Positions 19,224-63,674 of a stretch of 64,000 nucleotides of DNA are shown one piece after another. How positions within the stretch are numbered: position 1 is the first letter of the stretch; every line of letters starts with the position of its first letter. The DNA comes from Azospirillaceae bacterium (lineage in GTDB: Bacteria; Pseudomonadota; Alphaproteobacteria; Azospirillales; Azospirillaceae). The stretch covers positions 62,001 to 126,000 of the forward strand of contig JARLIO010000094.1 of NCBI GenBank assembly GCA_031291675.1, given 5' to 3'. Position numbers and translations under genes: made by a program. Under the pieces are notes generated by a model. That model saw nothing but the letters and a program-made list of their open reading frames with translations, did not search any database and was not told the DNA's origin.

Positions 19224-19298
19224 TGGTGGGCGCGACAGGGATTGAACCTGTGACCCCTACCATGTCAAGGTAGTGCTCTCCCGCTGAGCTACGCGCCC
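19224..19298 (-). tRNA. tRNA-Val(GAC), copy 1
   Basis: On the minus strand GGGCGCG pairs with CGCGCCC as acceptor stem. The D arm GCTC...GAGC, anticodon loop TTGACAT with anticodon GAC, T arm ACAGG-TTCAATC-CCTGT and an encoded ACCA end follow. Total length is 75 nt. Confidence 0.96.
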
Positions 19299-19423
19299 TT
19301 TAACCTGACGGCGCCGGGGCGCCGCTGATACCGTCATTCGGAGGGCATTGTGCCGACCCGAAGATACAAATGGCCGGAACCCGGGGGGCCGGCCCTTTTG
19401 AAACACCTGTTACCGCGGGCTAA

Positions 19424-19498
19424 TGGTGGGCGCGACAGGGATTGAACCTGTGACCCCTACCATGTCAAGGTAGTGCTCTCCCGCTGAGCTACGCGCCC
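19424..19498 (-). tRNA. tRNA-Val(GAC), copy 2
   Basis: The 75-nt sequence is identical to the copy at 19224, exactly 200 bases away, with the same GAC anticodon and encoded CCA. The flanks are only loosely similar, which points to an old tandem duplication. Being upstream in transcription, it may share a promoter with copy 1. Confidence 0.96.
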
Positions 19499-32330: not shown

Positions 32331-33494
32331 TCAGCGAGCGCCGAAATGATGACCCAGACGCTCGATGGCGCGATCAACCAGCCCATCACTCTTGCAGAAG
32401 CAAAACCGAATGCACCGGCTGGTGACCGGGTCCTGATAAAAGGCGCTCAGCGGGATCGCCGTCACGCCCGCGGCGACGGTCAGATCGTGGCAGAAGGCGT
32501 GGTCGGTACCAGCGAAACCGGTCGGGGTAAAATCCGCAACGAGGAAATAGCTGCCCTGCGCCGGCAGCACGGTCCAGCCGATCGCGGCGAGACCGGCGGC
32601 CAGGCGGTCCCGGCGCGCTTGCAGGGTCGAGACCAGATCCCGGAAATAACCGTCATCCTTGCCCAGGCCATAGGCCACCGCGGTCTGCAAATTCGGCGGC
32701 GTCGTGAACGTCAGAAATTGATGGGCCCGGGCGACCGGCTGCATCAGCGCCGGCGCCGCCGTGACATAACCGACCTTCCAGCCGGTCAGGGAAAAAGTCT
32801 TGCCGGCCGAGCCGATGCGCAGCGTCCGTTCCCGCATGCCCGGCAAGGTCATCAGCGGGATGTGTTGGCGGCCATCGAACACAAGATGCTCATAAACCTC
32901 GTCGCAGACCGCATAGGCGTCAAACCGGCGCAAAAACGAGGCGATCAGTGCCAACTCCTCGGTGGAAAAAACCTTGGCCGCGGGATTGAGCGGATTGTTG
33001 AGCACCAGCAGCTTGGTCCGGGGCGAAAACGCCGCCGCGAGGTCGGATTCATTGAACGACCAATCCGGCGGCGACAGGGTGACCCGTCGCGGAATGCCGC
33101 CGGCACGCAGGATGATCGGCAGATAGCTGTCATAAGCCGGCTCGAACAGCACGACCTCGTCGCCCGGTTCGATCAAGCCGAAAAAGCAGGCGGCGAGCGC
33201 CTCGGTCCCGCCGGAGGTCACCATGACCTCGGTCGCGGGGTCGACCGTCAAGCCGTAGAAGCGCGCGGCATGGTGCGCAACCGCCTGCCGCAGCGCCGGC
33301 ATCCCCATCATCGGCGCATACTGGTTGCTGTCATCAAGCAACGCCCGCGCCGCGACATCCAGAACGTCGGCGGGTCCACGATCGTCGGGGAAGCCCTGCC
33401 CCAGATTGATGCTGTCATGCGCGCGGGCCAGTTGCGACATCACCTCGAACACAGTGGTGCCATAACGCGACAAGATCGAATTTCCGGATTTCAC
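32331..33494 (-). CDS. Class I/II PLP-dependent aminotransferase
   Basis: I take a GTG start at 33494 (VKSGNSILSRYG, 387 residues), because homologues begin shortly before YGTTVFEVMSQLAR. Landmarks are INLGQGFPDD, NQYAPMMGMPALR, TSGGTEALAACFFGLI, NNPLNPAAKVF and the PLP-binding lysine in GSAGKTFSLTGWKVGY. The sequence resembles the methionine/kynurenine aminotransferase group (YbdL-like), which uses methionine, glutamine or aromatic amino acids as donors. Sequence alone does not decide the substrate. It stands alone, convergent with the small membrane protein gene. Confidence 0.9.
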   Translation of the reverse strand: MKSGNSILSRYGTTVFEVMSQLARAHDSINLGQGFPDDRGPADVLDVAARALLDDSNQYAPMMGMPALRQAVAHHAARFYGLTVDPATEVMVTSGGTEALAACFFGLIEPGDEVVLFEPAYDSYLPIILRAGGIPRRVTLSPPDWSFNESDLAAAFSPRTKLLVLNNPLNPAAKVFSTEELALIASFLRRFDAYAVCDEVYEHLVFDGRQHIPLMTLPGMRERTLRIGSAGKTFSLTGWKVGYVTAAPALMQPVARAHQFLTFTTPPNLQTAVAYGLGKDDGYFRDLVSTLQARRDRLAAGLAAIGWTVLPAQGSYFLVADFTPTGFAGTDHAFCHDLTVAAGVTAIPLSAFYQDPVTSRCIRFCFCKSDGLVDRAIERLGHHFGAR

Positions 33495-33642
33495 GAAACG
33501 CAAAGCCCCAATGGTATCAAACAACACAAAGCTAGCGCATCCCGGCGGCCCCGTCCAGGCGCCGGCGATCAGGGTCGCTACGGCATTTTCCGACCAGGGG
33601 AGTTCCGGTTGGGCGTAGAAAATGCGATAAAACAAAGATCGA

Positions 33643-33678
33643 GAGCCGTCTCCGATCCAACGTGATCGGAGACGGCTC
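33643..33678 (-). terminator. Strong 15-bp hairpin at cassette boundary
   Basis: GAGCCGTCTCCGATC and GATCGGAGACGGCTC form a perfect 15-bp stem with loop CAACGT. Read on the minus strand it is followed by TCGATCTTTGTTTTATC, as in a Rho-independent terminator. It would stop leftward transcription coming from the two-gene cassette side. Confidence 0.7.
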
Positions 33679-33823
33679 CAGCAGGTGATATGTCGTGCTG
33701 CCATACAGGCGAATCGGGTAAAAACCTTATCGGAAAACGACGTTTGGAAGAAAGTTGTCGTCCGAGGCGGCGCGTCGACGGAAAACGCCCGCGTTCAAAA
33801 ATTAGGTCGGGGATCCGAGGTAA

Positions 33824-33837
33824 ATCGTATATACGAT
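33824..33837. promoter_or_regulatory. 14-bp palindrome before two-gene cassette
   Basis: ATCGTATATACGAT is a perfect palindrome in AT-rich DNA, 71 bases before the GTG at 33909, and contains a TATATA that could be a -10 element. It fits an operator for a dimeric repressor acting on the cassette. Confidence 0.45.
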
Positions 33838-33908
33838 AAAAGCCAGCCGCGGGGCTTGAATATCGGGCACGCTTGTGCGGCGCCGGGGAAAAGGAGCGAG
33901 GCTCGGTC

Positions 33909-34358
33909 GTGACGAAGCGTGGTGGCAACAATCCCAAGCGCCGGATCGTTGGGCAAGGGCGCATTCCAGATGTGGAGTTGGACGCCCTCACGGTACGCGT
34001 ACGGTACGGCGGTAGCACCCACCACAAGAGAAATGCGGGAGACTATCGGTTCATTCCTCCATCGAACCCCAGGGGCTCTAAAAGCCTGTGTGACGATCTC
34101 CGGGTTATTCTCATGAGGGAGGCAGCCAGCCTCATGAAAAACGGTATAAAAAAGGGAATGGTTAGTGAAATTCTTCCCGATGGCTACCCCAAATATATCT
34201 GGGCAGTCGATGACCATGACGAACCATATGAAGCAAAACGGGGTGACGATGGGTGCACCTACCATGGATATCGATTGAACGAGGCCAACGAGTCCTTGAT
34301 GCGCGAGTTGGTACTTGACGAATGGCACCAGCGGCGCACGAGATCTGACGATGATTGA
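33909..34358 (+). CDS. Unrecognised small basic protein, first gene of cassette
   Basis: I choose the GTG at 33909 (149 residues) with ggagcgagg upstream. The basic N-terminus (TKRGGNNPKRRIVG) leads to a folded part: HKRNAGDYRFIPPSNPRGSK, a helical segment with GIKKGMVSE, then GYPKYIWAVDDHDEPYEAK and TYHGYRLNEANESLM. The conserved-looking His, Tyr and Trp positions suggest an enzyme or toxin, but I cannot name a family. It overlaps the next gene by eight bases, so the two are coupled. Lower GC than the neighbours supports horizontal acquisition. Confidence 0.7.
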   Translation: MTKRGGNNPKRRIVGQGRIPDVELDALTVRVRYGGSTHHKRNAGDYRFIPPSNPRGSKSLCDDLRVILMREAASLMKNGIKKGMVSEILPDGYPKYIWAVDDHDEPYEAKRGDDGCTYHGYRLNEANESLMRELVLDEWHQRRTRSDDD

Positions 34359-35661
34359 GATATCCTTTCAGCCTGAGCGCCCCAATGAGGGATTCCCTGA
34401 GGAACGAGCGACTTTCGGGCATCTTCAAATCCGGGCAGATGGCCAGACCCTGACAGAAGGGTTCGATCGTTTTATCAACAGCTCCCGAAAAGGACCGCTT
34501 GTTTCTGCGTATCATCTGGCCGAATGGCTGATCTGGAACTGGTGGCGCCTGAAACACGAGCCACGGCCACGTACTAATCCGCACCGGGCTTGGTGTTTCG
34601 CGCATATGCTCACGTCCATCGGTGAAGGCTATGTCTGGCCAAATATCACGATCTGGTCTGATGGTTATCGCAGCGTGGTCGAATCAAAACAGACGGCAAC
34701 GGCCGAGGAGCCGGCTTTCCGTTATTTTGGGGCACCCACCGTCCTTTGCTCTTGGGAAGACGTGGAAACCGCGATTGACCATTTTACCGGGGCTATTCTG
34801 GCAAGGCTGGAGAGTGAGCAGGTCGGAGAGACAAATCTGCATAGACTTTGGCGCGATCTCGAACGGGAGCGCTCGGAGCAGGATCTGGAGCGTTATCGCC
34901 GGTTAGAGGCTCAACTCGGGTTCGATCCGGATGAGGCACCCGAAACGGAGATGAACGCTCGCTTGGATGATGCTGCGACTTTGGGCGAAGAAGCTGTGGG
35001 TGAACTTGCCTATCAGGCGGCTCTCCAATCCTCCGGCCGGACCCAAATGCTTTCCGCTGCACAGATCTTCGATATGACGCGGAACGACGGCTTCGAGTTT
35101 GTTTGCGCGGATGCAATGAGCGAAACTGCGGACTGGCAGAGTATTGCTCCCTGGGGAACATGCGCCGCCTCCGACATTGGTGTCGCGGCAGCTCACGCCG
35201 TCAGAAGAATGCTGCCGCCTGGGAAAATCAGCGACGAGAAATTGGCTCGGATTGCTGGAACAAGCCAATACGTACTGAATTATCAACCAACGCGAGGGCC
35301 TTTATCGTTTGCATTACTTGACGATAATGACCGTGGGCACATCGTTCTGTCAGGAACCCGCGACGTCAATCGACGATTCGAACTGGCTCGTCTCATAGGT
35401 GATAGAATGATGCGATCGACAGGTCGCCTTTATCCGACAACGAGTGCGCGCAGCTATCGCCAGAAAGCGCAGCGCGCGTTCGCAGCCGAGTTCCTTGCTC
35501 CAATTGAAGAAGTCATAGAGATTGCTAATGGTGATTTTTCGGATGACCGACAAGACGATATCGCGCGGAATTTTGGCGTTTCAAATATGGTAATCGACAG
35601 GTTGCTTAAAAATAACCGCATCATCGAACGCAATCCCGGTGACTATCTTGATGCGCCCTGA
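34351..35661 (+). CDS. Large partner protein with degenerate ImmA/IrrE-like C-terminus
   Basis: A 436-residue protein from ATG 34351. The N-terminal 170 residues are Trp-rich (LAEWLIWNWWRL, AWCFAHMLTSIGEGYVWPN) and unrecognised; a charged helix (170-215) follows. The C-terminal 130 residues follow the ImmA/IrrE (M78) layout: RRFELARLIGDRMM where active members have the AHELGH zinc motif, then AFAAEFLAPIEEV, and IARNFGVSNMVIDRLLKN. The metal-binding His and Glu are absent, so it is probably a pseudo-peptidase. With the overlapping first gene it may form a toxin-antitoxin-like or defence pair; that is inference. Confidence 0.75.
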   Translation: MIEISFQPERPNEGFPEERATFGHLQIRADGQTLTEGFDRFINSSRKGPLVSAYHLAEWLIWNWWRLKHEPRPRTNPHRAWCFAHMLTSIGEGYVWPNITIWSDGYRSVVESKQTATAEEPAFRYFGAPTVLCSWEDVETAIDHFTGAILARLESEQVGETNLHRLWRDLERERSEQDLERYRRLEAQLGFDPDEAPETEMNARLDDAATLGEEAVGELAYQAALQSSGRTQMLSAAQIFDMTRNDGFEFVCADAMSETADWQSIAPWGTCAASDIGVAAAHAVRRMLPPGKISDEKLARIAGTSQYVLNYQPTRGPLSFALLDDNDRGHIVLSGTRDVNRRFELARLIGDRMMRSTGRLYPTTSARSYRQKAQRAFAAEFLAPIEEVIEIANGDFSDDRQDDIARNFGVSNMVIDRLLKNNRIIERNPGDYLDAP

Positions 35662-35669
35662 ACGAATCA

Positions 35670-35689
35670 GATCTCTTGATCAAGAGATC
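35670..35689 (+). terminator. 20-bp perfect palindrome after cassette
   Basis: GATCTCTTGATCAAGAGATC lies eight bases after the stop at 35661 and is followed by T-rich DNA (tcatattttatgttt). This fits a Rho-independent terminator for the two-gene cassette. Confidence 0.65.
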
Positions 35690-35856
35690 GTCATATTTTA
35701 TGTTTGGAAACAAATAGCGTCCGCAACCCAGCCTTCCGAAACAAGGGCAGTTCATCAATCTTCCGACAAAGACTGATGCCGCCAGACGATCACGATACGA
35801 CGAGCGCGCGCGATCGGGCCAAGGGGCTGCGTCGCCGTCTTCGATGAGGAAACTCT

Positions 35857-36795
35857 ATGAAACGCGTTCTTGTAACCGGCGGGGCCGGATTCCTGGGATC
35901 TCATTTGTGCGAGCATTTGCTCGACCAGGGTCATGAAGTCATTTGCGTCGACAATTATTTTACGGGCCGGCGCACCAACATCGGCCATCTCTTCGAGAAT
36001 TCAAACTTCGAGGTGATCCGCCACGACATCACCTTCCCGCTCTACCTGGAAATCGACGAGATTTACAATCTGGCCTGCCCGGCATCACCGGTTCACTATC
36101 AGTTTGATCCGGTCCAGACCGTCAAGACCAGCGTCCATGGCGCGATCAACATCCTGGGCCTCGCCAAACGGACCAGGGCCAAAGTGTTTCAGGCCTCGAC
36201 CAGCGAGGTTTATGGCGATCCGACCGTCCACCCGCAGCCGGAAACCTATGCCGGCAATGTCAACCCGATCGGCCCCCGCGCCTGCTACGATGAAGGCAAG
36301 CGCTGCGCCGAAACCCTGTTTTTCAGCTATCACCGGCAATATGCCGTCAAGATCAAGGTGGCGCGGATTTTCAACACCTATGGACCGCGGATGCACCCCA
36401 ATGACGGCCGGGTCGTCTCCAATTTCATCGTCCAGGCCTTGCGCAATGAACCGATCACGATCTATGGCGACGGCGGACAGACCCGGTCTTTCTGCTATGT
36501 CGACGACCTGATCGACGGTTTCATCAAGCTGATGGACAGCCCGGACACCGTCACCGGGCCGATCAATCTCGGCAATCCCGAGGAGTTCACCATTGGCGAG
36601 CTCGCGGCACTGGTCGTCAGCATGACCCACTCGCAGTCGCCGATCATTTATCATCCCCTGCCCCAGGACGATCCGCAGCAGCGCCGTCCGGACATCACGC
36701 GGGCCACCACCTTGCTCGACTGGCGGCCAACCATCCGGCTGCAGGACGGGCTGGAGCGCACCATCGCCTATTTCCGCACCATCCTGGACGCGTGA
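35857..36795 (+). CDS. UDP-glucuronate decarboxylase (UDP-xylose synthase)
   Basis: A 312-residue extended short-chain dehydrogenase. The NAD-binding [10 protein letters not shown] is at residues 8-17. The active-site stretch includes STSEVYGDP and YDEGKRCAE with the Tyr-x3-Lys pair. [27 protein letters not shown] and [21 protein letters not shown] are characteristic of UDP-xylose synthase rather than 4-epimerases. It converts UDP-glucuronate to UDP-xylose for surface polysaccharide. No glycosyltransferase genes are adjacent. The 195-base upstream interval separates it from the acquired-looking cassette. Confidence 0.92.
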
Positions 36796-40292: not shown

Positions 40293-41438
40293 TTAGAGCG
40301 TACCGCCACGGAAGAAGCGCGCCGGGACGAAGGGCAGCTTCGCGACCGTCGCCGCCAGCGGCTTGCCACGGACGATCAGGGTCAATGCGGTATCCGGCGT
40401 CGCCTGCGCCGCCGCGACATAGCCCATCGCGACCGGCCCGTTGACGGTCGGGCCGAACCCCCCGCTGGTGACGATACCGACCCGCTGACCCGCCGGATCC
40501 TGAATCTCGGTGCCATCGCGCGCCGGCGCCCGTCCGACGGGACGCAGCCCGACCCGCACCCGCTCCGGACCCTCGGCCCACTGGCGTTGGATCAGGGCGT
40601 CGCCTGGAAAGCCGCCCGCGGCGCGCCGCCGGGCGCTGATGGTCCAGGTCAGGCCCGCCTCGACCGGCGTCGTGGTCTCATCGATATCGTGGCCATAGAG
40701 GCACAACCCCGCCTCCAGCCGCAGCGAGTCGCGCGCCCCCAGACCGATCGGCGCCACCTCGGGTTCCGCCAGCAGCAGCCGGGCGATGGCTTCGGCATGA
40801 TCGGCGGCAACCGAAATCTCGAACCCGTCCTCGCCGGTATATCCCGAGCGGGTCACAGCAACCGCGATGCCGCCGATCACGGCGTCGGTGACGGTCATGA
40901 AGCGCAGCGCCGCGATTCCCGGAATATGGCGGCCCAGAACCAACGCCGCCGCCGGCCCCTGAAGCGCCAGCAGGGCCAGATCCTCAAGCGGCTCGACAGA
41001 GATCGACGATGGCAGGGCAGCACGCAGATGGGCGATGTCGTCCCGCTTGCACCCGGCATTGATCACCAGGAACAGGTGATCGCCGCCATTGGTCACCATC
41101 AGATCGTCGCGGATGCCGCCCTGTTCATTGAGCAGCAGCGTATAGCGCACGCGTCGTTCGCCCAGCGCCTGCAAATCGCCGGGAACCAGCCGCTCCAGCG
41201 CCGCACGGACATCGGGACCCGACAGGCGCACCTGTCCCATGTGGGAAACGTCAAACAGCCCGGCCTGGGCGCGCGTATGAAGATGTTCCTTGAGGATGCC
41301 CGCGGGATATTGCACCGGCATTTCGTAGCCGGCAAAGGGCACCAGCCGCCCCCCCAGCTCCCGATGCAACGCATGAAGCGGCGTGGTGCGCAGTTCATCC
41401 GGTGGCGAAACCGAATCCTGGGGCAAAGCTGTAGTCAC
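40293..41438 (-). CDS. gcvT: Aminomethyltransferase (glycine cleavage T protein)
   Basis: I use a GTG start at 41438 (381 residues) because GAAGGAA lies eight bases upstream and homologues begin near [20 protein letters not shown]. Landmarks: [34 protein letters not shown], the [12 protein letters not shown] segment and [19 protein letters not shown]. The enzyme transfers the methylene group from GcvH to tetrahydrofolate and releases ammonia. As first gene of the operon it sits about 55 bases downstream of the glycine riboswitch. Confidence 0.96.
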
Positions 41439-41492: not shown

Positions 41493-41753
41493 CCTCTGTC
41501 GCGAACCTGAGAGATTCACCGCACCGTCAGTGGAAACATTTCCGGCCGTCAGTCCGCCCCATGGCCGACCCGTCAGAATGCCCGCCGATAACGCGGCTTA
41601 CGCCTTCGGTGAGACCACGGCCGTCATCGAGCCTTGGTCTGCTTTCCAGAGTGCCTACTCCTGCGGTCCCTGTTGCCTGAGAGTTTCCGGGGCGGTTGCT
41701 CCTTCGGCGCCGTCGAACCGGCCAGGGCCGATCCGCCGATCTCTCCCGCGAGG
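41493..41753 (-). promoter_or_regulatory. Tandem glycine riboswitch
   Basis: On the minus strand two glycine aptamers follow each other. The first has GGGAGAG, GCCGAAGGAGCAA and CTCTCAGGCAACAGGGACCG. The second has CACTCTGGAAAGCAG, CACCGAAGGCGTAAG and CTCTCAGGTTCGCGACAGAG. These are the conserved blocks of the gcvT element. It should switch on the gcv operon when glycine is abundant. The 55 bases before gcvT must hold the expression platform. Confidence 0.93.
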
Positions 41754-41811
41754 TCTACGGCATGGCGGCAGCGCTCCCGGATCATCTCCCGGTCACGTCA
41801 CCGACCGCTCT

Positions 41812-44729: not shown

Positions 44730-44867
44730 TGTCGGGTTTGCCCTTCCACGATGCCCTTCTGATCCGACTTTGACGGCGTACCGAAAATCGGGTATTATGA
44801 CCGTGGGTAGACCATGCCATCGAGACGCGAGAGAATCGGCGTCTTGGGTGCGGCAGGGGAGGCAATC

Positions 44868-45179
44868 GTGAGTGTATCAAGCGTAGGAACGACGAATTCG
44901 TTCTTCTATCTGAATCGCTCTCTCAATACGGGGACGAACGCCGCGGCGGCGCAGACCGGAACCCAAACGGGAACAACGACCGGATCGACGAGCGCGACGG
45001 GAACGATCGGATCAACGACGAACGCCGCAACGTCACCGGCGGCCAACGCCGCCAATAATGTCACGACTTCGGCCGCCCTGGCCGCGGCGGTGAATACCAC
45101 CAGCGCCACCAGCACCACGCCGCAAACCAGTGGCACGAGCTCGGGGCTCCTGGGAACTGCGGTCAATTTCACGGTCTGA
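44868..45179 (+). CDS. Ser/Thr/Ala-rich small protein
   Basis: No family is recognised. I favour the GTG at 44868 because ggggagg precedes it closely. The 103-residue product begins SVSSVGTTNSFFYLNRSLN and then becomes a low-complexity run of Thr, Ser, Ala, Gly and Asn (GTTTGSTSATGTIGSTTNAA), ending SGLLGTAVNFTV. There is no classical signal peptide. The composition recalls secreted or surface adhesin-like peptides, or an unstructured spacer. It is 140 bases after the ygjV-like gene. Confidence 0.5.
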   Translation: MSVSSVGTTNSFFYLNRSLNTGTNAAAAQTGTQTGTTTGSTSATGTIGSTTNAATSPAANAANNVTTSAALAAAVNTTSATSTTPQTSGTSSGLLGTAVNFTV

Positions 45180-45415
45180 GCGGTTTGCGGCCGGGATCGT
45201 GGCACGGCGAGCGCCGGTGCCAAGCGGTTTATTGTGGCCGAGCAATGGACCAGAACGGCGCCGTCGTCCCCTCGGGTCGGCGCGCTTCTGGCGCGGTTGA
45301 TCCCGGCAACGTCGCCGTGTAAGTTGATCCGGGCGTTGACGAGACGACCGCGGAGTTCGGCGTTACCGGATAAGACTCGCCTGCATCCCACTAGACTGCC
45401 AATGACGGGGCCCTC

Positions 45416-46609
45416 TTGCGATCGGAATCCCACCAGAAGGTCGAGAACGATGGCGCAGGCGCGGATCCGTCGCCGCGCTCACCCGGCACCGGCGGGGCGA
45501 TCAGCCGACGCCAACTGTTGAGTGCAACAGCCCTGCTCGGCTTGGCCGCCTGCACCACACCTCATGTCGGCCCCGGTGTTGGCTCAAGGACCGACGGCGC
45601 CATTCCCATCGCCGACCGCCCGGCGGCGACGACGCGCCTGCTCGCAGACACCGTCACCATCGATATGAACAGCCATGCCGGCCGGGTGCTCGCGGCGCGG
45701 CGGCAAAGCGCCTCCCCGCCGTTCGAGCCACTGGCCGAACCGATGCGCGCCGGCGGCATGGCCGTGATCTGCCTCTCCATCGTCACCGACACCCCGGTAA
45801 CCCGGACCACGGCCGACAAACGCATCGTCGCGGCGCGTCCCCCGGAACCGGGCGAGCTCTACACCTGGAGCCGCGGCGCCTTCTCGCGGCTCCAGGCGCT
45901 GATCGCCCGCGAGCAGTTGACGATCATCACCGACGCCGCCAGCCTGCGAACCGCGCGCCAGCACGGCCCGGCGGTGATCGTCGCCGTCGAAGGGGCTGAT
46001 TTCCTTGAGGGCGCACTCGACCGCCTTGATGAGGCGCATCAGCGCTATCAATTGCGCCAGTTGCAGTTAACCCATTATCGCGCCAATGAATTGGGTGACA
46101 CCCAAACCGATACGCCGGTTCACGGCAAACTGACCGATTTCGGCACTGCGATCATTCGCGGTTGCAACCGCCTGGGCATCGTCGTCGACATCGCCCATGC
46201 CACCTTCGAGATGGCCAAGCAGGCCGCATCGGTGACAAGCAGGCCGCTGATCCTGTCGCACACCTCGCTGATCAACCAGCCGCCGCCCGGCAGCCGCCAG
46301 ATCACGCCCGATCATGCCCGCCTCGTTGCCCAAACCGGCGGTGTGATCGGCATCTGGCCGCCGACAACGATTTTTCCCGATCTCACGGCCTATGCCGACG
46401 GTGTCGCGCGCATGGTCGATATTGTCGGCGTCGACCATGTCGGCATCGGCAGTGAAATGATGGGCCTGTCGTCGGCCTCGGTGTTCGAGAGCTATCGCGA
46501 TCTGCCGCAACTAACAACGGCACTGCTGACAGCCGGGTTCCAGATCGATGAAACCGCCCGGATCCTCGGCGGCAACTACCAACGCGCCTTCGAGGCAACC
46601 CTGGTGTGA
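45416..46609 (+). CDS. Membrane dipeptidase family (M19) protein, Tat/lipobox signal
   Basis: A 397-residue protein from TTG 45416, though the exact start is uncertain. SRRQLLSATALLGLAAC combines a twin-arginine motif with a lipobox (Cys about residue 47), so it is probably a Tat-exported lipoprotein. The rest follows the M19 fold: EGADFLEG, VVDIAHATFEMA, LILSHTSL and VGIGSEMMG. Zinc ligands Glu and two His are present. The usual first site DGHND is replaced by DMNSHAG, with Gly where the Asp ligand should be. It may hydrolyse dipeptides or D-amino-acid substrates, or have altered activity. Confidence 0.85.
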   Translation: MRSESHQKVENDGAGADPSPRSPGTGGAISRRQLLSATALLGLAACTTPHVGPGVGSRTDGAIPIADRPAATTRLLADTVTIDMNSHAGRVLAARRQSASPPFEPLAEPMRAGGMAVICLSIVTDTPVTRTTADKRIVAARPPEPGELYTWSRGAFSRLQALIAREQLTIITDAASLRTARQHGPAVIVAVEGADFLEGALDRLDEAHQRYQLRQLQLTHYRANELGDTQTDTPVHGKLTDFGTAIIRGCNRLGIVVDIAHATFEMAKQAASVTSRPLILSHTSLINQPPPGSRQITPDHARLVAQTGGVIGIWPPTTIFPDLTAYADGVARMVDIVGVDHVGIGSEMMGLSSASVFESYRDLPQLTTALLTAGFQIDETARILGGNYQRAFEATLV

Positions 46610-48320: not shown

Positions 48321-50357
48321 TCAACTATTGTCCGATGCCACAAACATCGCGCAGCCGGGCGCGCGAACCGCAACCATGAAGCCCCGTTCGGTGCAGCGGC
48401 CGCCCTGAAAGGCCGAGCAGCGACCGCAAACGCCGGCCGGCAGCGAATCGATCAGTTGGGCAAGCTGAACCGGCAGGCCGGGCATCGCTTCCGCAGCCGG
48501 CTTCGGCGTTCCGGGCCCGCCAGCCTCCGGCGCCCCCGGCATCATGAATCCCGCGGTTCCGGTCAGCCGCGCCCAGGCGATATCGCACAGCATGTTGGCA
48601 TAAGCAAAGTGCGGATCGATGCCCCCGGTCTTGACCACCTTGGCCCGCGCCCTCCGGGTCTGCGGGTCGTCCTCGACCACCAGGGCAACACGGGTGAAAT
48701 GCAGGAACACCCAGTCGCGCAGGATCGCGATGCGCCGCCGCTCGCCGCGTTCGATCACGTCCTGCTCCAGCGATGCCGGGTCGGCAAACAGGCAGGCCCG
48801 GTTGCGCAACCGGAACAGCGCGGTCTGCATCGCCTTGTACTGGTTCAACGTCACCGTATAGCGGGTGCGGTCCTCGGCGCTGGTGCGGCGGTCGGACCGT
48901 GACAGCTCGTCACCCCACAGCATCATGTCGTCGCGCAGATCGGCATAACCGGCCAGGAACACCCGGCCGCGATGGCGATTGGCAAAGCGGCGGGCATCAT
49001 TGACGTTGGGCAGCTGTTCGAGGACGCAGACCGCGACACCGTATTGCGCCATCAGGTCCGAACAGCGCTCGAACGGGTCGTTGTCAAACACCGCCTCGAC
49101 ATGCACCACCGCCTGCCGGCCATCGCCCAGGCGCTCCTTGATGATGACGCAGTTGAAGCCACCCATCTGATCAATGCCGGCCACGGTATCGCGTGCCGCC
49201 GTCTTCCAGACGACACCAAGACGGCGCCCCTCCTCGACACAGGCCAGGCAGTCCTCGAGGCTGACCGGCAACTGGCTGGAATCGATATAGGGCCGCGCCA
49301 GTTTCCGGTTGTAGAAGCTCTTCTTCTGCCCCCCGGTGACCGCGCGGTTCCAATCCCCGATCAGATCGCGCGGCGTGATGGTCGGGCTGATGGTCTGGGG
49401 CAGCAGCATGCTCTCGATCGCGGCACCGGGAACCGTTGCGATATAGCGTCCCTGTTGCGGATCGGCGATCCAGCCGCCGCAGTCGCCGCACAGCCAGACA
49501 TACTCGTTGATCGGCGCCCCGGCGATCTGGCCGCTATTGTAACCGATCGATCGCGGGAAGTTGCGATAAGGGTCCGACAAATCGCTGAGGGCACCGCAGC
49601 GAAGGCACAGGCTGTGCCAGACCTCCTGCGTGCCCTGCTTGTACCAGTAGTTGATATCGGCATCGGGCAGATTGGCCGTCGACAGCATCAGCATCATACG
49701 GAAATCCGACGCGCTGAGCCGTTCGCGTACCTTGTCGATCTGCTCCAGCGTCATTTCCTGGACTTCGTCGAGGCTGATCATATCCATGGGCCGGCTCTCG
49801 GTCGACACCCGCCCCGAAGTCCACAGAAACAGGAACCCGGATTCGCCAATAACCCGGGTCAGGACATTGCCCTCGCCAATGCGCAGAACGGTACCATCCT
49901 GGACGCGGCTGGTCATCCGTTGATGGATTTCCGGAATGGTCCGGACGATACGCAGGAACCGATGTTCCGACTTGTAGGCCGCCGTGGCCTGATCAGGCAG
50001 AAACATGCCGATCACCAGCGGCTCGAACTTCAAGGCCAGATAGAGATCGGCCAGCGTCTCCCAGACCGTCAGGCCCAATTGAGCCGCTTTCTGGATCACG
50101 ATGATCCGCCCGCGGCCCTCGGCCCGGGTCGTCGGGATCTTGTCATAGACCGGGATCAGCGCCGGCCGGTTCTCCAGGGTGAAGGGCTTGCCATCAACCT
50201 TGAGACCGCGCCGGCCCATCTCGACGCACCAGTCGCGGAACGACATGGTTTCGGGGATGGCGCCGGGCCGCCCCAGGCCGATCTCGGCGGCGAACGCGGC
50301 CAGCCGGCGCGCTTGGGCCTTCAGCGACCATGACAACAGGGGGTTGTCGCTGCTCAT
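48321..50357 (-). CDS. Phage terminase large subunit, GpA-like
   Basis: A 678-residue terminase. The N-terminal ATPase has a diverged Walker A (IIVIQKAAQLGLTVWE) and a Walker B MDMISLDEVQEM. Four paired cysteines near residues 255-300 (CLRCG, CGDCGG) resemble the zinc insertion of lambda GpA-type terminases. A nuclease-like half follows (GIDQMGGFNCVIIKE; AYADLRDD-type acidic residues). An extra C-terminal CGRCSAFQGGRC motif is unusual. It cuts and packages phage DNA. The start overlaps the small-subunit gene by ATGA. No portal or head genes follow. Confidence 0.88.
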   Translation of the reverse strand: MSSDNPLLSWSLKAQARRLAAFAAEIGLGRPGAIPETMSFRDWCVEMGRRGLKVDGKPFTLENRPALIPVYDKIPTTRAEGRGRIIVIQKAAQLGLTVWETLADLYLALKFEPLVIGMFLPDQATAAYKSEHRFLRIVRTIPEIHQRMTSRVQDGTVLRIGEGNVLTRVIGESGFLFLWTSGRVSTESRPMDMISLDEVQEMTLEQIDKVRERLSASDFRMMLMLSTANLPDADINYWYKQGTQEVWHSLCLRCGALSDLSDPYRNFPRSIGYNSGQIAGAPINEYVWLCGDCGGWIADPQQGRYIATVPGAAIESMLLPQTISPTITPRDLIGDWNRAVTGGQKKSFYNRKLARPYIDSSQLPVSLEDCLACVEEGRRLGVVWKTAARDTVAGIDQMGGFNCVIIKERLGDGRQAVVHVEAVFDNDPFERCSDLMAQYGVAVCVLEQLPNVNDARRFANRHRGRVFLAGYADLRDDMMLWGDELSRSDRRTSAEDRTRYTVTLNQYKAMQTALFRLRNRACLFADPASLEQDVIERGERRRIAILRDWVFLHFTRVALVVEDDPQTRRARAKVVKTGGIDPHFAYANMLCDIAWARLTGTAGFMMPGAPEAGGPGTPKPAAEAMPGLPVQLAQLIDSLPAGVCGRCSAFQGGRCTERGFMVAVRAPGCAMFVASDNS

Positions 50358-50956
50358 GCGTCGGCCGTCGTGGCGTCGCGGTCCGGTGGCATCGCATCCG
50401 CACCATTGGCGCTATCGGGCCCGGTCGCGCCGCCCCAGGCGACATTGATACGTTGTAGCCGGCGCACTACCCGTTCGGCGATTTCGGGCGATTCGGCACG
50501 CAATTCATCGAAGATCGCGGCGTGAAACCGCTCCAGCTGAGCGATCGTCGTCACCCGGTCGTGCAGTTTCGCCGCGGTTTCCATGGTGCGACGCAGATGT
50601 TCGGAGGCCATCAGCAACAGGCGGAATTCCGTGGCACCGGCACGCTTGCCGCCGCCACTGACCCCTTGCTCCGCCTGGGCGATGACCTGCTCGGCAACGG
50701 CGATGCAAGTCCGAAGCTTTTCCAGGACCGGAATCATGCCGCCGTCGCGCGCGCCGCCCGCGGTGGCGGCTGCCGCGCCCAGGCCGGCCGGCGTGGTGCG
50801 ATACAGCACGGCATCGATCCAGCGATACAGGGTTCGCTTGCTGACACCCATCGCAGTCACCCGCCGTGACAGGTCGGCGCGATCAAACAATCGCCCATGC
50901 TGTTGGATTTCTTCGCAAATCATCTGCTCGACCTGGGGGCGCATCTCATGCGTCAT
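50354..50956 (-). CDS. Putative terminase small subunit
   Basis: A 200-residue protein with an N-terminal helix-turn-helix (DRADLSRRVTAMGVSKRTLYRWIDAVL), then long charged helices (residues 75-175) suitable for oligomerisation, and a disordered acidic tail. Position directly before the large subunit, with ATGA overlap, and the HTH-plus-helices plan fit a small terminase that recognises the packaging site. Sequence similarity to a named family is not obvious, so the call rests mostly on context. It overlaps the preceding gene as well. Confidence 0.65.
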   Translation of the reverse strand: MTHEMRPQVEQMICEEIQQHGRLFDRADLSRRVTAMGVSKRTLYRWIDAVLYRTTPAGLGAAAATAGGARDGGMIPVLEKLRTCIAVAEQVIAQAEQGVSGGGKRAGATEFRLLLMASEHLRRTMETAAKLHDRVTTIAQLERFHAAIFDELRAESPEIAERVVRRLQRINVAWGGATGPDSANGADAMPPDRDATTADA

Positions 50957-51390
50957 GACGTGGTTTCACCTTCGTTTCCGCCGCCGCCAGCTGGATGGCC
51001 ACGCCGATCGGTTTCGGGCAGCGGCACAATGATGAACATCTCCGGCGAGACCGCGCGATCGGGATTGGCAACACAAGCAAAGCGCCGACCGTTGATTTCC
51101 AGGCCGCATCCGCAAATCCCGGAGGGCAAACCATCGCGATCGCCATGGCACGCCACGAAACAGGTCGAGCAGCGGAACAGGTCGCCGCAGATCTGAACCT
51201 GACCGCCGCAACGCCGACAGGCATGACCGGTGTCGCGCCAGCTGCTGTGTGCCCAGCCCATCGCGCCCCAGTCCCGGGGCGCCCAGGGATCGCCAGCCGC
51301 GGCAGCGGCCTCACGCTCGGCTTTTCGTTGCCGCCGAGCGGCGCGGGTCGTGGGGCGCGGGGCAACGCCAGGACCCTCGCGGCCCCTCAT
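50953..51390 (-). CDS. Zinc-ribbon-like phage protein
   Basis: I start it at ATG 51390 (145 residues), which overlaps the upstream gene's stop. A basic N-terminus (RPTTRAARRQRKAERE) is followed by CRRCGGQVQICGDLFRCSTC and a further CGCGLEINGRRFAC, giving paired cysteines likely to bind one or two zinc ions. Function is unknown; small zinc proteins next to terminase genes often include HNH-like or packaging cofactors, but no HNH motif is seen here. It is coupled by overlap to both neighbours. Confidence 0.65.
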   Translation of the reverse strand: MRGREGPGVAPRPTTRAARRQRKAEREAAAAAGDPWAPRDWGAMGWAHSSWRDTGHACRRCGGQVQICGDLFRCSTCFVACHGDRDGLPSGICGCGLEINGRRFACVANPDRAVSPEMFIIVPLPETDRRGHPAGGGGNEGETTS

Positions 51391-52013
51391 ATCGGCAGCT
51401 CCAATTGCTGTCCCGCAAACAGCGGGCGCGCCCGGCACAAAGCCACGGCGCCCGCAGCCTTGCGAACCGCGAGAATGATCGCCTCCAACCGGTCGCTGAC
51501 ATCCGCGAAATGGCCGACGTGATAACGCCGGCCATCGCGGTAGGCTACGGTCTCCTGGTGCAAGCGAAGGGAAATTCGCGGGGCCGATCCCCGGGCATTG
51601 CGCCCGCGCTGAGCCTCACGGTGGCGGTTGTAGCAGGAGATACAAAGTCGTTGATTGATCAGACGGTCGACGCTGCGCCGACAGCGCGGACAGATGCCAT
51701 CGGCAAAGGGATCGAGCCGGATCCGGTCCGCACGACCGGCGTTGAAGGCACCCACCGGGCAGGCCCGGCAGTGCCAGAGACTTTGCCAGGGCTCCGCCCT
51801 TCCGCGCTGGGCCACGCGCCACAGATGCACGCAACAGTCATACGGTACATCCGCCTGCTGACGATGGCAGCGGAACGGCGCCATCCCCTCGCCGCCACGC
51901 GCCGTGTCGCGCACCGACATCGCCATCGAAATCGGGGATGGCGCAGGATTGATCCGCTCTTCAATTATCCGCCCCTGGATCATCGATCCTTGAATCATCG
52001 ATTCTTGAACCAT
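51387..52013 (-). CDS. Cys-rich phage protein, hypothetical
   Basis: A 208-residue protein from ATG 52013 with GGGAGG upstream. The N-terminus has a short repeat (MVQESMIQGSMIQG). Cysteine and histidine clusters follow: FRCHRQQADVPYDCCVHLWRV, LWHCRACPVGAF, GICPRCRRSVDRLI and LCISCYNRHRE, which look like two or more zinc-binding knuckles. The C-terminal third is a basic alpha/beta segment. No family is recognised. It is in the middle of the remnant's leftward operon and overlaps the next gene by four bases. Confidence 0.65.
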   Translation of the reverse strand: MVQESMIQGSMIQGRIIEERINPAPSPISMAMSVRDTARGGEGMAPFRCHRQQADVPYDCCVHLWRVAQRGRAEPWQSLWHCRACPVGAFNAGRADRIRLDPFADGICPRCRRSVDRLINQRLCISCYNRHREAQRGRNARGSAPRISLRLHQETVAYRDGRRYHVGHFADVSDRLEAIILAVRKAAGAVALCRARPLFAGQQLELPI

Positions 52014-52054
52014 CGCCGCCTCCCGTCACGAAATTTTCCGGCCATTCCCTATCC

Positions 52055-52462
52055 TCAGTCGCGGCGCGGGACGGGTTCGGCCGGCGCCGCGCTATGGCAT
52101 GCGGCGTGGTGACGTCGGCAATAGGCAGAGTCGGGCATCGGATCCGCCTGGCAATAGCGCCATTCCAATCCCGGCACGTCACCGACGATAAAGCGACAGC
52201 CGATCGGTTCTTTGGGACCCAGCGGCAACGACAGCCGTTGCTCGACGCCAGCCATGGTCGCGCTGCGCAAGCCGTAGCGCCACGCCAGGCCGGCAATCAC
52301 GATCGGCGCGATGCCGTAGCGCCGTGCGATTTCGGCGTGGCTGAAGCCCTGTTCCAGCAACAGGGCACGCAGCGCGGGCGCCGAAGGCCAGAGATCGGTG
52401 CGCCGCAGCGCCGCTTCGGGGCTGCGTTCCGGCGCCGGGTCGACAATTCTGAGTGCTCGCAT
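52055..52462 (-). CDS. GcrA-like protein
   Basis: A 135-residue protein from ATG 52462 (MRALRIVDPAPER). The helix-turn-helix reads LLLEQGFSHAEIARRYGIAPIVIAGLAWRYGL. The C-terminus has the GcrA signature: GCRFIVGDVPGLEWRYCQADPM and SAYCRRHHAACH, with paired Cys and His. GcrA in alphaproteobacteria binds sigma70 and methylated GANTC promoters to time the cell cycle. Phage copies could redirect host transcription. Here it sits inside the remnant between the PAPS-reductase-like gene and the Cys-rich genes. It is shorter than chromosomal GcrA. Confidence 0.75.
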   Translation of the reverse strand: MRALRIVDPAPERSPEAALRRTDLWPSAPALRALLLEQGFSHAEIARRYGIAPIVIAGLAWRYGLRSATMAGVEQRLSLPLGPKEPIGCRFIVGDVPGLEWRYCQADPMPDSAYCRRHHAACHSAAPAEPVPRRD

Positions 52463-52508
52463 CACGTCAGCGTTTCCCCCTATCTGGTTGACCAGCCCCG
52501 GCCGGCGC

Positions 52509-53507
52509 TCAACGGACGCCGGATTTCGACTGAAGAGTCCGCGACAACGGATTTTGCGGTGCTGTCGCGGGCCACGACGGCACGGCGTCGCCATCGACAA
52601 AGCAACCGCAACCGCCGATCTCGAAGCGATCGACGCGATGCCCGGCGGCGACAAGATGGCGAAATGCGGCCAGGGTCAGCGGCTTTTTGGGGCCACCGCC
52701 GTGGCGGCTGGCCATCATCGCGACGTCACGGCCCAGATCGCGGCGCAGTGCCTGCTCCTGGACCTCATGAAAGGCGTATCGTTCGGGAAACTGCCGCAGC
52801 AGTTCGACATAATGGCCCTGCCCGGCCTTGCAGCAGAAGCCGCTGCAATTGTTGTGGGCAAAACCGCGCCGGGTAAGATCGGGCGGCGCAATCCCGACAT
52901 CGTGCAGCCAGCCCAGTATGTCGGGCCGGGCCACCGGGGGTGCCTCGCACAACGGGGCCTCAAGGCGCCAGCCCTGCGCCGCCCAGCGGGCGCGGGCGCC
53001 ACCGCCGCGCCGATCCCCGGCAAAACGATGAAGCTCCGTCCAATCGATGCCAAGATAAAGGACGGTGTCGGACGGATCGCGGTGCCTGCGCAACCATCGT
53101 TCCGCCGGACGACGCTTCAGCACCCGCGAGCAGGGATCGATGGCGCTATTGCCGAGAAACCGTTCGTCGGCAAAGACCTGCCAGGGGTCGCGTCCCTCAA
53201 CGATCCAGACCAACCCCGGCAGGACGCGCGCCAAAGCGTCGCGGATCGCCGCCAGGGCCATCCGCCGGCCGAAACGGTCGCCGTGATAGTCGGGAACCGC
53301 CGCGATAGCATCGCCAAGGGGCGCGGGTAAGGCCGTGCCGAACAGATGCGCCGCCCCCTCGGCCAGGAACCGATAGAGATCACTGTCCTCGGCCAGGGTG
53401 TCGGTAAACAGGAGGGTCAAATCCCCGCTGCCGTGCCGTTCGACCAGCCTCTTTGCAGCCCCCCAGCTGCCGACCCCACCCGAGAACATCACGACATGCC
53501 CGGTCAT
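52509..53507 (-). CDS. PAPS-reductase/DndC-like nucleotide alpha-hydrolase
   Basis: A 332-residue protein with the PP-loop MFSGGVGSWGAAKR at residues 7-20, the adenylate-binding site of PAPS reductase and DndC-type enzymes. Cysteines in DPCSRVLKRRP, HNNCSGFCCKAGQ and GGCGCFVDGD could hold an iron-sulfur cluster. LYLGIDWTELHRF is another family landmark. Phages carry such genes, presumably for sulfur or DNA modification. It is the first leftward gene of the remnant, divergent from the repressor, with operator-like palindromes between. Confidence 0.85.
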   Translation of the reverse strand: MTGHVVMFSGGVGSWGAAKRLVERHGSGDLTLLFTDTLAEDSDLYRFLAEGAAHLFGTALPAPLGDAIAAVPDYHGDRFGRRMALAAIRDALARVLPGLVWIVEGRDPWQVFADERFLGNSAIDPCSRVLKRRPAERWLRRHRDPSDTVLYLGIDWTELHRFAGDRRGGGARARWAAQGWRLEAPLCEAPPVARPDILGWLHDVGIAPPDLTRRGFAHNNCSGFCCKAGQGHYVELLRQFPERYAFHEVQEQALRRDLGRDVAMMASRHGGGPKKPLTLAAFRHLVAAGHRVDRFEIGGCGCFVDGDAVPSWPATAPQNPLSRTLQSKSGVR

Positions 53508-53655
53508 GACGAACCAGGGCCAATCGCCAGGATATGCCGATCACCGCCAATCATGCTGCGCCCTCATTTTCGATCCGGGACGGGCCGAAAAGAGAAGGAT
53601 GGCCGCCGTGACGCCGCTCGGCGCCACCCCCGCTTTCTCGATCCCAGTGGGATGT

Positions 53656-53673
53656 TATGGGATATTTCCCACA
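53656..53673. promoter_or_regulatory. Operator-like palindrome, distal
   Basis: TATGGGATATTTCCCACA has the perfect core TGGGA-N4-TCCCA and repeats the half-site of the operator at 53715. It lies in the divergent region and could control the leftward phage operon. Confidence 0.6.
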
Positions 53674-53714
53674 TTGTCAAGCGGACACTTCCCATTACGC
53701 ATCGCGGCGTCATC

Positions 53715-53732
53715 TGTGGGATAGTGCCCACA
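53715..53732. promoter_or_regulatory. Operator-like palindrome at repressor start
   Basis: TGTGGGATAGTGCCCACA has perfect 6-bp arms and ends two bases before the repressor ATG at 53735. Binding here would block the repressor's own translation start region or promoter, as in autoregulated phage repressors. Confidence 0.65.
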
Positions 53733-53734
53733 CC

Positions 53735-54268
53735 ATGATCGACGATACCGAGACCGAAACGCTGGCGCAGCGGCTGGAGCGGCTGATGAAGGCGGCAGGG
53801 CATTCCTCCCGGAGCCTGTCATTGGCTGCCGGGCTGAATGCCACCGCCGTCCGCGACATCGTGAAGGGACGATCAGAACACCCGTTGATTTCAACCGTCC
53901 AGGCCTTGGCGGCCGCCTTGGCGGTCGATCCGACGTTTCTCGCCGGCGGCGACCGGCCTTACCGGTCGGTTGCCCCCGCCCTGGATCGGCGGAACGGGGC
54001 CAAAGACCCGGCGGCCAAAGACTCGGCGATCGACGCGCCCGTCGTGGCAATCCCCTTGGATCGTGACAATCTGCGACGAGCCATTGTCGCGATTGAAACC
54101 TACCTGCAATCCACCGACACCGATCTGCCACCGAAAGCCGTGGCCGATTTGGTGCTGAGACTGCACGATTGGCATGCCCGCGACGTCGCCAGGAACGGTT
54201 CCTGGGAATTGACGGCGTCACACGCGGCCGCCTGGATCGAAGATATCCTCGATCTCAAAAGACCATAA
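53735..54268 (+). CDS. XRE-family phage-type repressor
   Basis: A 177-residue protein from ATG 53735 (MIDDTETETLAQRLERL). The N-terminal helix-turn-helix (HSSRSLSLAAGLNATAVRDIVKG, then PLISTVQALAAALAVDP) is typical of CI-like and XRE repressors. The C-terminal part lacks the Ser-Lys peptidase of LexA/CI and is a short helical dimerisation segment. Operator-like palindromes with TGTGGG half-sites lie immediately upstream. It probably represses the divergent leftward operon and itself. It is the only regulatory gene of the remnant. Confidence 0.85.
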   Translation: MIDDTETETLAQRLERLMKAAGHSSRSLSLAAGLNATAVRDIVKGRSEHPLISTVQALAAALAVDPTFLAGGDRPYRSVAPALDRRNGAKDPAAKDSAIDAPVVAIPLDRDNLRRAIVAIETYLQSTDTDLPPKAVADLVLRLHDWHARDVARNGSWELTASHAAAWIEDILDLKRP

Positions 54269-61982: not shown

Positions 61983-63674
61983 ATGACGATGTCCGTGAGC
62001 CTTGGCGCGCTCAATATCCTGCAAAAGCAGCTGCTGGCCTTTGCCTGCCTCGTCGCCCTGTCGGTGGTGGTGGGTGCCGTCACCTGGTGGCAGCTCTCGG
62101 TCGTCGGAGCCGGTATCGCCGCAGCCGATCAGACGACCGCGGTCGCCAAGGCGAACAACGCCCTCGTGGAAAACCTGCTGAGCCAGGAATCCACGGTTCG
62201 TGGCTATCTGCTGACGGGTGATGACAGGTCACTCCAACTCTATCATGCCGCCCAGGCGGGATATGAACCGGCCCTGGCCCGGGTGCGCAGCAGGACCCAC
62301 CTGACCGAGCAGTTGGCGCGGGTCGACGATCTCGATCGCCTGGCCAAGACATGGATGAACGACATCGGCGCCAAGGAAGTCGCGCTGATGGCCGACCCCG
62401 CGACCCGTGACCAGGTCCGTGCCATGATTGCCGGCGACGCGGGCAAAGCCGACATCGATGCCATTCGGGCCAAGATCACCGAAATGACGCAATTTGTCGA
62501 CGGCATCCGGGCGATGCGCGATGCCGCGCGCAACCGGGCGCTGCACATCACCTATGCGGTCACGGCGATCGGCGTCGTCGCGTCGGCCGCCGCGGCGATC
62601 CTGCTGGGCTGGCTGCTGACCCGCAATATCGCGCGGCCGATCGTCCGGACCACAGGGTTGATGCGGCAACTGGCTGCGGGCGATCATTCCATTGAGATTC
62701 CGGACACCACGCGCCGCGATGAGATCGGCGCGATGGCCAAAGCGGTCGAAGTCTTCAAGCACAATGCCATCGACACCGCACGGCTCGCCGCGCAACAGGC
62801 CGCCGACGACCAGATGCGTCACCAGCGGACCGAAACGGTGACCACACTGGTCCATGGCTTCGAGGATCAGGCCGTCCAGATCCTGGGCATGGTCGCGAAA
62901 TCGGCGCGCAGCCTCGACCACACCGCAAAATCAATGGCAACGATTGCCGAGCAGACCAACCGCCAGGCCACCGCCTCCGCCGTCGCCTCGGAACAAACCG
63001 CCGCCAACGTCAATACCGTTGCCGCGGCCGCCGAGGAAATGGCGAGCACGCTGCGCGAGATTGCCTCCCAGGTCGAGAAATCCAGCGCCGTCGCCAGCCA
63101 GGCCGTTCGCGAGGCCCAGGATACCAATGCCACCGTGCGCAGTCTGGCCGAGTCGGCGCAGAAGATCGGCGAGGTCGTAACCCTGATCAACGATATCGCC
63201 AGCCAGACCAATCTGCTGGCCTTGAATGCGACGATCGAGGCCGCCCGCGCCGGTGAGGCTGGCAAGGGCTTTGCCGTGGTCGCCTCCGAGGTCAAGAACC
63301 TCGCCAGCCAGACCGCAAAGGCGACCGAAGACATTGCCGGCCAGGTCGCGGCCATGCAGCAGGCGACCAGCGGCGCCGTTGAAGCCATCAACCATATCGG
63401 CACGACAATCGGCGCGATCAATGAAATCACCACGGCGATCGCCGGGGCGGTCGAGGAGCAGACGGCGGCCACGGGCGAAATCGCCCGCAATGTTCAGCAG
63501 GCCGCGGCCGGCACCCAGGAAGTCTCCAGCACCATCGGTCAGGTCACCGAGACCGCGGCGAAGACCGGATCGGCGGCCCAGGATGTCCTGGCCGCCGCCG
63601 GAGATCTGGCCCGTCAATCCGACACGCTCCGCCAGGAGATTGAGACCTTCCTCGACGGCATTCGCGTGGCGTGA
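61983..63674 (+). CDS. Methyl-accepting chemotaxis protein with CHASE3-like sensor, paralogue 3
   Basis: A 563-residue chemoreceptor from ATG 61983 with gaggggag upstream. Membrane segment about 18-38 ([20 protein letters not shown]), sensor with an intact CHASE3-like [20 protein letters not shown], second segment near 197-217, HAMP ([15 protein letters not shown]) and signalling domain with [20 protein letters not shown]. It is closest to paralogue 2 in the linker ([16 protein letters not shown]) and to paralogue 1 in the sensor motif, suggesting duplication with recombination. A strong hairpin follows the stop. Confidence 0.95.

Follow-up and report, generated by a model that had tools for sequence, protein, structure and literature searches.

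The 64,000-nucleotide window analysed here (positions 62,001 to 126,000 of contig JARLIO010000094.1, assembly GCA_031291675.1, from an Azospirillaceae bacterium) contains a leftward operon that ends in a large terminase gene, terL, and is flanked by a divergent repressor gene. This operon is probably the control and packaging hub of a dispersed gene-transfer-agent-like system derived from a phage of about 90 kb with a contractile tail. In the 5.87-Mb genome to which the window belongs (G000; the window lies on contig C66), head, adaptor, tail, baseplate and spike genes stand in separate islands beside host genes, granted the draft assembly, on whose correctness all statements on dispersal depend. 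The genes terL, portal, sheath and wedge are unduplicated, with one match each in the genome. From this arrangement we infer that particles are formed, that they package host DNA and that the gene set is kept by selection.

Virion-gene islands and their phage relatives

TerL (PF05876, 6.5e-12; phrog_675, 8.8e-85) is 46-59% identical to the TerLs of phages of 91-96 kb, including PHB04 (59%), Dolphis (46%), ST4, Touem01 and others, and 41% identical to that of Mecenats66 (86 kb). Identity is 56% with the Rhodovarius crocodyli prophage, 51% with the Rhodovastum replicon RHOApe and about 50% with a gene on a 104-kb contig of G405, another genome of the class; an alignment with six relatives gave 47-63%. 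No PDB match was found. The Mecenats66 TerL groups with those of PHB04 and Dolphis, and our TerL falls in this clade. Headful packaging, beginning at a preferred start, was shown by experiment for Mecenats66 (PMC9503643). The capsid proteins of PHB04 (Bordetella, Phabquatrovirus), Dolphis (Pseudomonas) and Mecenats66 (Morganella) are 46-48% identical to the capsid protein of our genome. RHOApe (NZ_OW485606.1, L274) is 112 kb long and carries terminase, portal and late signals within the 42 kb read; it looks like a phage-plasmid of this family.

Virion genes of this family were found at six loci of the genome: C66 (the window), C22, C19, C70, C71 and C34. A profile of six portal proteins matched once, at C22:4253-5764, in a block that also contains a maturation protease gene (phrog_1028, 8.2e-24), a scaffold-like gene and the major capsid gene (phrog_752, 6.1e-81), flanked by an FMN_bind_2 gene and, at the opposite end, by a MucR gene. 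The sheath profile matched once, at C70:32761-34470. This block comprises a 299-aa gene, an 89-aa gene, sheath, tube, two overlapping small genes, a 999-aa open reading frame (ORF) and two more tail genes, and it is flanked by ABC-transporter genes and a radical-SAM gene. The single match of the wedge profile, C71:6234-7343, is accompanied by tube-initiator-like, sheath-initiator/gp25-like and baseplate-like genes; the block adjoins LexA and LuxR-type genes, beyond which lie flagellin-type genes. On C34 an 87-aa PAAR protein (phrog_281, 1.3e-11; Pfam 25.2 bits, just below the cut-off of 27) lies between host-type genes. The 3.6-kb contig C19 carries an arginase-family gene, a 261-aa gene, a 149-aa gene (50% identical to Rhodovarius) and the N-terminus of a tail fibre (PF12571, 3.5e-54) that is cut by the contig end. 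The 261-aa protein is 42% identical to its counterparts in G405 and Rhodovarius; its Dolphis homolog is annotated as a head-to-tail adaptor, unlike phrog_772, which is labelled tail fiber.

Host-type genes flank both sides of the islands on C66, C22, C70, C71 and C34, and the Pfam types in the flanks also include M19 dipeptidase, hydrolase, MCP chemotaxis, aminotransferase and M20 peptidase. The longest exact repeat between the flanks of an island, among five islands compared, is 14 bp on C34 and 9-10 bp for the other four. The distance to the nearest contig end is 73.8 kb for the window island and 26.4 kb for the C70 island, which places the two at least 100 kb apart; for comparison, the relatives' records are 86-112 kb long. 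Gene order within the islands follows that of the relatives, and the order of late genes resembles that of Rhodovarius and G405. One replicon holds the virion genes together in PHB04, Rhodovarius, RHOApe and G405, and in the phage lineage of PHB04, Dolphis and Mecenats66, in Rhodovarius and in RHOApe it also carries giant and other genes, whereas in our genome the virion genes occupy at least six loci. As an observation on the assembly, contig C22 opens, on the mucR side, with over 100 consecutive C (C22:1-115, L091), probably an artefact.

Profile searches across the whole genome covered terL, portal, sheath, wedge and endolysin; other genes were compared within 380 kb of its sequence. In those 380 kb, 19 of 91 Rhodovarius genes and 21 of 53 G405 genes had matches. 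Each set includes one GapR-type host gene and one weak giant-gene match, leaving 17 and 19. The remaining genes of both had no match in the 380 kb.

An initial annotation of the window had described the module as lacking portal, capsid and tail genes, and had read it as a truncated prophage or as a satellite that uses its own terminase to package itself in another phage's capsids. The phage origin of the module and the absence of head genes at this locus were correct; genome-wide the description does not hold, as portal, sheath, baseplate wedge and other virion genes lie elsewhere. Because this genome also proved to carry portal, sheath and wedge genes, we dropped both the satellite and a simple deletion from one prophage, the 'deleted' parts of which occur at other loci. 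Relatives with the same genes continuous with head and tail genes, which the annotation had taken as the mark of a simple deletion, exist in part. Rhodovarius, G405, PHB04, Dolphis and RHOApe carry terL and head genes on one replicon; next to those terLs no PAPS-reductase-like, GcrA-like or repressor gene was found.

Phage satellites (PICI/P4-like) are self-contained mobile units with an integrase and attachment ends, and they use helper capsids. Packaging genes held under a repressor in one 6-kb locus would suit such an element, but G000 has its own portal, protease, capsid, tail and baseplate genes, and the longest exact repeat shared by the module flanks is 10 bp. Pfam and PHROG scans of the module proteins gave no integrase family match, in agreement with the initial annotation, and only sub-threshold 'DNA transposition' helix-turn-helix (HTH) matches. 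The satellite label was rejected on these grounds, and we regard this explanation as very improbable.

The late signal and the origin of the islands

The upstream regions of the C22, C70 and C71 blocks have GTCGTGACGGCA in common, and every island outside the window carries it. A related pattern, GTCGTGACNNCA, was counted in 42 deduplicated loci of related phages (drawn from 58 collected) and occurred 55 times compared to 3 times for the reversed pattern (30 shuffled patterns: mean 1.7, maximum 9). In 30 cases an ATG followed 8-13 nt later, compared to a mean of 0.13 (maximum 2). An 8-base core gave 108 hits in 43 loci and 33 when reversed. ATG stood at exactly +22 after 49 of the 108 core hits, at +14 after 20 and at +23 after 11, with other offsets averaging about 2; a frame of at least 60 codons opened at +22 in 44 of the 108.

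The position of the signal is conserved before homologous genes. PHB04, Dolphis, Rhodovarius and RHOApe have a late signal like that of our genome, and the portal gene has it at 22 nt in our genome, Rhodovarius, G405, PHB04 and RHOApe; in Rhodovarius, PHB04 and RHOApe it consists of the 8-base core, and the next four bases differ from the 12-mer pattern. Before homologs of the first C70 gene it stands at 22 nt in G405 and at 25 nt in Rhodovarius, and before the homolog of the 383-aa C71 gene at 22 nt in Rhodovarius. As the signal is kept before these homologs, the island borders coincide with those of transcription units already present in the phage, and the islands look like ancestral transcription units that were moved whole.

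In our own genome GTCGTGACNNCA has 29 sites compared to 6 for the reversed pattern. Exact GTCGTGACGGCA has 14 sites, 12 of them between called genes, and virion genes accompany six of these 12 (C22 has two, and C70, C71, C19 and C34 have one each). A T three bases after the 12-mer is found at 97% of 30 well-spaced phage sites and, by eye, at eight of our exact sites, including all six at virion genes. A look-alike with two mismatches before zn208 in the window was discounted because the loose pattern (up to three mismatches) hits the same 6.5-kb stretch about 20 times.

Several further observations concern the signal itself. A family-wide form, GTCGTGACGNCAnnnT, was seen in Rhodovarius (G082:C2), G405:C62, G033:C10, L008, L009, L013, L014, L016-L018, L021, L022, L274 and others; the commonest position of the ATG is exactly 22 nt from the start of the signal, inspection by eye showed no clear Shine-Dalgarno sequence in the gap, and these sites are possibly promoters of leaderless messages. 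The signals at C43:144781 and C41:13644 (L152, L150) share a 121-bp stretch that is 87% identical; the former precedes a hydrophobic 198-aa gene and then a patatin-like gene, and the C41 copy looks decayed. At C30:41952 (L148:8962-9807) the signal precedes a 281-aa ORF with a tag resembling those of phage cargo. Neither this ORF nor the C43 198-aa protein had phage matches. C88:112278 (L154) has two tandem copies, one of them imperfect, with no recognised gene behind. The sites on C30, C41, C43, C53 and C88 were not counted as islands, as no recognised virion gene accompanies them.

The main alternative is that a prophage or phage-plasmid was recently shattered by chromosome rearrangement and that the islands are its undecayed relics. 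In favour of shattering, terL was found in one of 82 genomes of the family, our own, with a single genome representing our genus; the order-level sample consists of the same 82 genomes. An endolysin, one conserved gene and the giant genes were not found (the endolysin with one profile, the others in the 380 kb), and C41 carries the apparently decayed copy of the C43 leader. Against shattering, the cuts fall at gene and transcription-unit borders, the outside islands retain the late signal, and terL, portal, sheath and wedge are not duplicated. None of the ORFs checked is interrupted: internal stops were absent from 27 of 28 rows, and the 28th, which had been given wrong coordinates, proved open as well. 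Codon use of the virion genes lies within the host range (percentiles 10-99, except the putative tape measure at 3 and PAAR at 5). We consider shattering unlikely, although it is the most serious competitor of the gene-transfer-agent-like system.

Tail genes of the same lineage also occur in another family member. G033:C10:62400-87700 (L116, L117) is a contiguous contractile tail cluster. It also codes for an HTH protein, an N-acetylmuramidase and zn208/zn161-like proteins, and it has four exact late signals. The genes called in the 40 kb read included none recognised as head or terminase genes, and G033 had no TerL match genome-wide; the cluster is likely a tailocin. The wedge profile matched four of the 82 family genomes (our own, G050, G047 and G033), and G033 is the one of the other three whose locus was read. 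Considering the tail-only cluster of G033 together with the dispersed set of G000, this phage lineage was apparently taken over twice in one family. A multi-locus contractile injection or killing device that happens to retain head genes would agree with the G033 cluster and with a contractile tail bearing a PAAR spike, but open terminase, portal, protease and capsid genes are needless for a tail device, and we judge this explanation improbable. In tailocins, too, a host has retained the contractile tail genes of a phage lineage; as head and packaging genes are present in G000, the tailocin label was rejected for it.

The window operon and its control region

The six leftward ORFs (48321-53507) mostly overlap, and the divergent HTH gene ends at 54268, as the initial annotation had it; the terminase and PAPS-reductase-like identities were likewise upheld, and the repressor matched phrog_2967 (1.3e-11). 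Coordinates are listed in Table 1. The terS-like product is 26-29% identical to genes directly upstream of terL in L007, L009 and Rhodovarius, and its HTH matches lie under the Pfam cut-off. In Rhodovarius the order is zn208, zn161, terS, terL, portal, with other genes between zn161 and terS. The zn161 product had no Pfam match and is 32-38% identical over 74-93 residues to proteins of L004, L009, L012, L014, L015, L017 and L021 (E 3.9e-5 to 0.002). The PAPS-reductase-like protein had matches in 71 phage records and in PDB (21fy_C 'PptA', 2e-7).

Table 1. Features of the leftward operon and its control region (window positions)
Feature	Position	Strand	Remarks
terL, large terminase (GpA family)	48321-50357	-	678 aa; C-terminal cysteine motif; PF05876 and phrog_675
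terS-like small terminase	50354-50956	-	200 aa; N-terminal HTH-like stretch
zn161, cysteine-rich protein	50953-51438	-	Similarity to 7 loci
zn208, cysteine-rich protein, candidate late regulator	51387-52013	-	71 viral loci
Weakly GcrA-like 135-aa protein	52055-52462	-	ATG at 52462 likelier start; ORF reaches 52654 from TTG
PAPS-reductase-like protein	52509-53507	-	332 aa; phrog_424, 9.6e-40; first gene of the operon
Sigma-70-like promoter of leftward operon, TTGACA-17-TAACAT	53652-53680	-	1 found; shuffles mean 0.1
Operator 1	53656-53673		18-bp near-palindrome; covers the 17-bp spacer of the promoter
Operator 2	53715-53732		18-bp near-palindrome; directly before repressor start codon
HTH repressor	53735-54268	+	177 aa from later ATG; ORF opens at 53657; phrog_2967, HTH_3

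The promoter reads into the PAPS-reductase-like gene and was the only promoter-like site found in the region. The repressor more likely starts at the ATG at 53735, with both operators upstream of its start, and the ATG at 52462, giving 135 aa, is the more likely start of the GcrA-like gene. The operators proposed in the initial annotation were recovered as two near-palindromes with the core TGGGATAnTnCCCA, which has two exact copies in the whole genome, both in the window; with one mismatch there were 7 genome sites compared to 8 for the reversed pattern. The repressor operators were therefore rejected as a signal common to all islands, since exact copies occur only in the window.

Relatives of zn208 occur in 71 viral loci, with eight cysteines invariant across 28 aligned sequences. 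For a structural model (pLDDT 78), neither Foldseek (E <= 0.001) nor VIA (Z >= 5) gave a match; no confident fold match was obtained, and zn208 therefore stays a candidate activator. A motif count around 59 deduplicated zn208 loci gave 13 compared to 2 for the reversed motif, a difference that is not separable from shared ancestry. The idea that a phage GcrA ties expression to the cell cycle and GANTC methylation did not survive. The protein scored 13.6 bits against the Pfam GcrA family, below the cut-off of 26.9, no viral relatives or PDB match were found, and its single-sequence model (pLDDT 44) was too poor for use. There was no GANTC site in the 253-bp control region (53508-53760) compared to a window mean of 2.0 per kb, although absence by chance is possible. 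The label of cell-cycle regulator was rejected for this protein.

In the proposed mechanism, relief of the repressor would fire the leftward operon, and one of its products (zn208, zn161 or the GcrA-like protein) would turn on the scattered late units via GTCGTGACGGCA. The islands would then make heads and tails, and TerS/TerL would fill the heads by the headful mode of their terminase clade. Since the islands have no phage replicon attached, most of the packaged DNA would come from the host, and the particles would carry it to kin. A single switch would govern all loci, as the operators occur only in the window.

Elsewhere in the window, two tandem tRNA-Val (gac) genes with equal Rfam scores lie at 19224-19498, a glycine riboswitch (41654-41758) lies upstream of a leftward gene called at 40293-41369, and G+C content falls to 0.53-0.55 at 34001-36000 from about 0.6-0.65 around it, a possible foreign segment.

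Comparison with gene transfer agents and significance

Six defining features of gene transfer agents were taken from PMC9662315, and two of them are found here, so we call the system gene-transfer-agent-like rather than a member of that group. The first is a set of caudoviricete-derived proteins of a virion-like particle, represented at the gene level by packaging, head, adaptor, tail, baseplate and fibre homologs. The second is an endogenized genome at multiple loci, represented by six loci with host-type flanks (C19 ends inside the fibre gene). The same source, as far as it was available, evaluates three independently exapted groups with an established genetic basis, in which the tail type, where named, is non-contractile (PMC9662315). 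According to PMC11841831, all gene transfer agents probably package by headful.

RcGTA and the other alphaproteobacterial type I gene transfer agents (Rhodogtaviriformidae) resemble our system in having phage-derived particle genes at several host loci and in headful packaging. They contrast with it in tail type and terminase family. Our system has a contractile tail, a phage ancestor of about 90 kb and no single main head-tail cluster, and it is known from genes alone. RcGTA is ascribed at least 24 genes at five loci (PMC10883770) and its genes are called scattered (PMC9662315). A different host phylum and ancestor distinguish VSH-1/BhGTA. This agent of Brachyspira is said, in work attributed to Stanton in 2009, to have a divided genome. 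Its tail is given as non-contractile in PMC9662315.

Several observations weigh against the gene-transfer-agent-like system, and the weightiest is that no related genome with the same islands was found by TerL among the 82 family genomes. TerL matched one genome of 82 in the family and two of 385 in the class sample, our own included in each, and these counts give no evidence for old vertical inheritance. Among virion functions, the tape-measure assignment of the 999-aa C70 ORF is drawn from position and length, and a gene that is conserved between the adaptor and tail genes (Rhodovarius 44838-45728, G405 33049-33858) had no match in the 380 kb. One muramidase-type endolysin profile, used with no positive control, found nothing in the genome, and replication genes were judged absent on the 380 kb. 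As to the late signal, the other six of the 12 intergenic exact sites (C30, C41, C43 twice, C53, C88) are followed by no recognised virion gene, and the signal may be a promoter or a leader. On C19 the exact signal stands only before the third gene, with a one-mismatch copy 42 nt before the 261-aa gene, and the window module lacks the late signal even when one mismatch is allowed. Finally, TerS retains its HTH-like stretch, and codon use of zn161, zn208 and the repressor is at the low edge of the host's (percentiles 3-5).

The scattered arrangement is typical of gene transfer agents, and this phage lineage is not known to have given one. No report of a contractile-tailed gene transfer agent stood among the titles listed by a literature search, which had most subscription papers outside its coverage. 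We hold in even balance the claim that this is the first, independently exapted from a phage of about 90 kb, with virion operons spread over at least six host loci, bound only by an ancestral late signal and governed by one repressor switch. If this is true, dispersal of a contractile system, one operon at a time, would add another route to gene transfer agents, and a phage could be dismantled without losing co-regulation, each late unit keeping its own signal. 'Headless' terminase modules need a genome-wide check before they are labelled satellites or remnants. Such a dispersed set suggests a cheap search, in which genomes are probed for the phage late signal rather than for a gene cluster.

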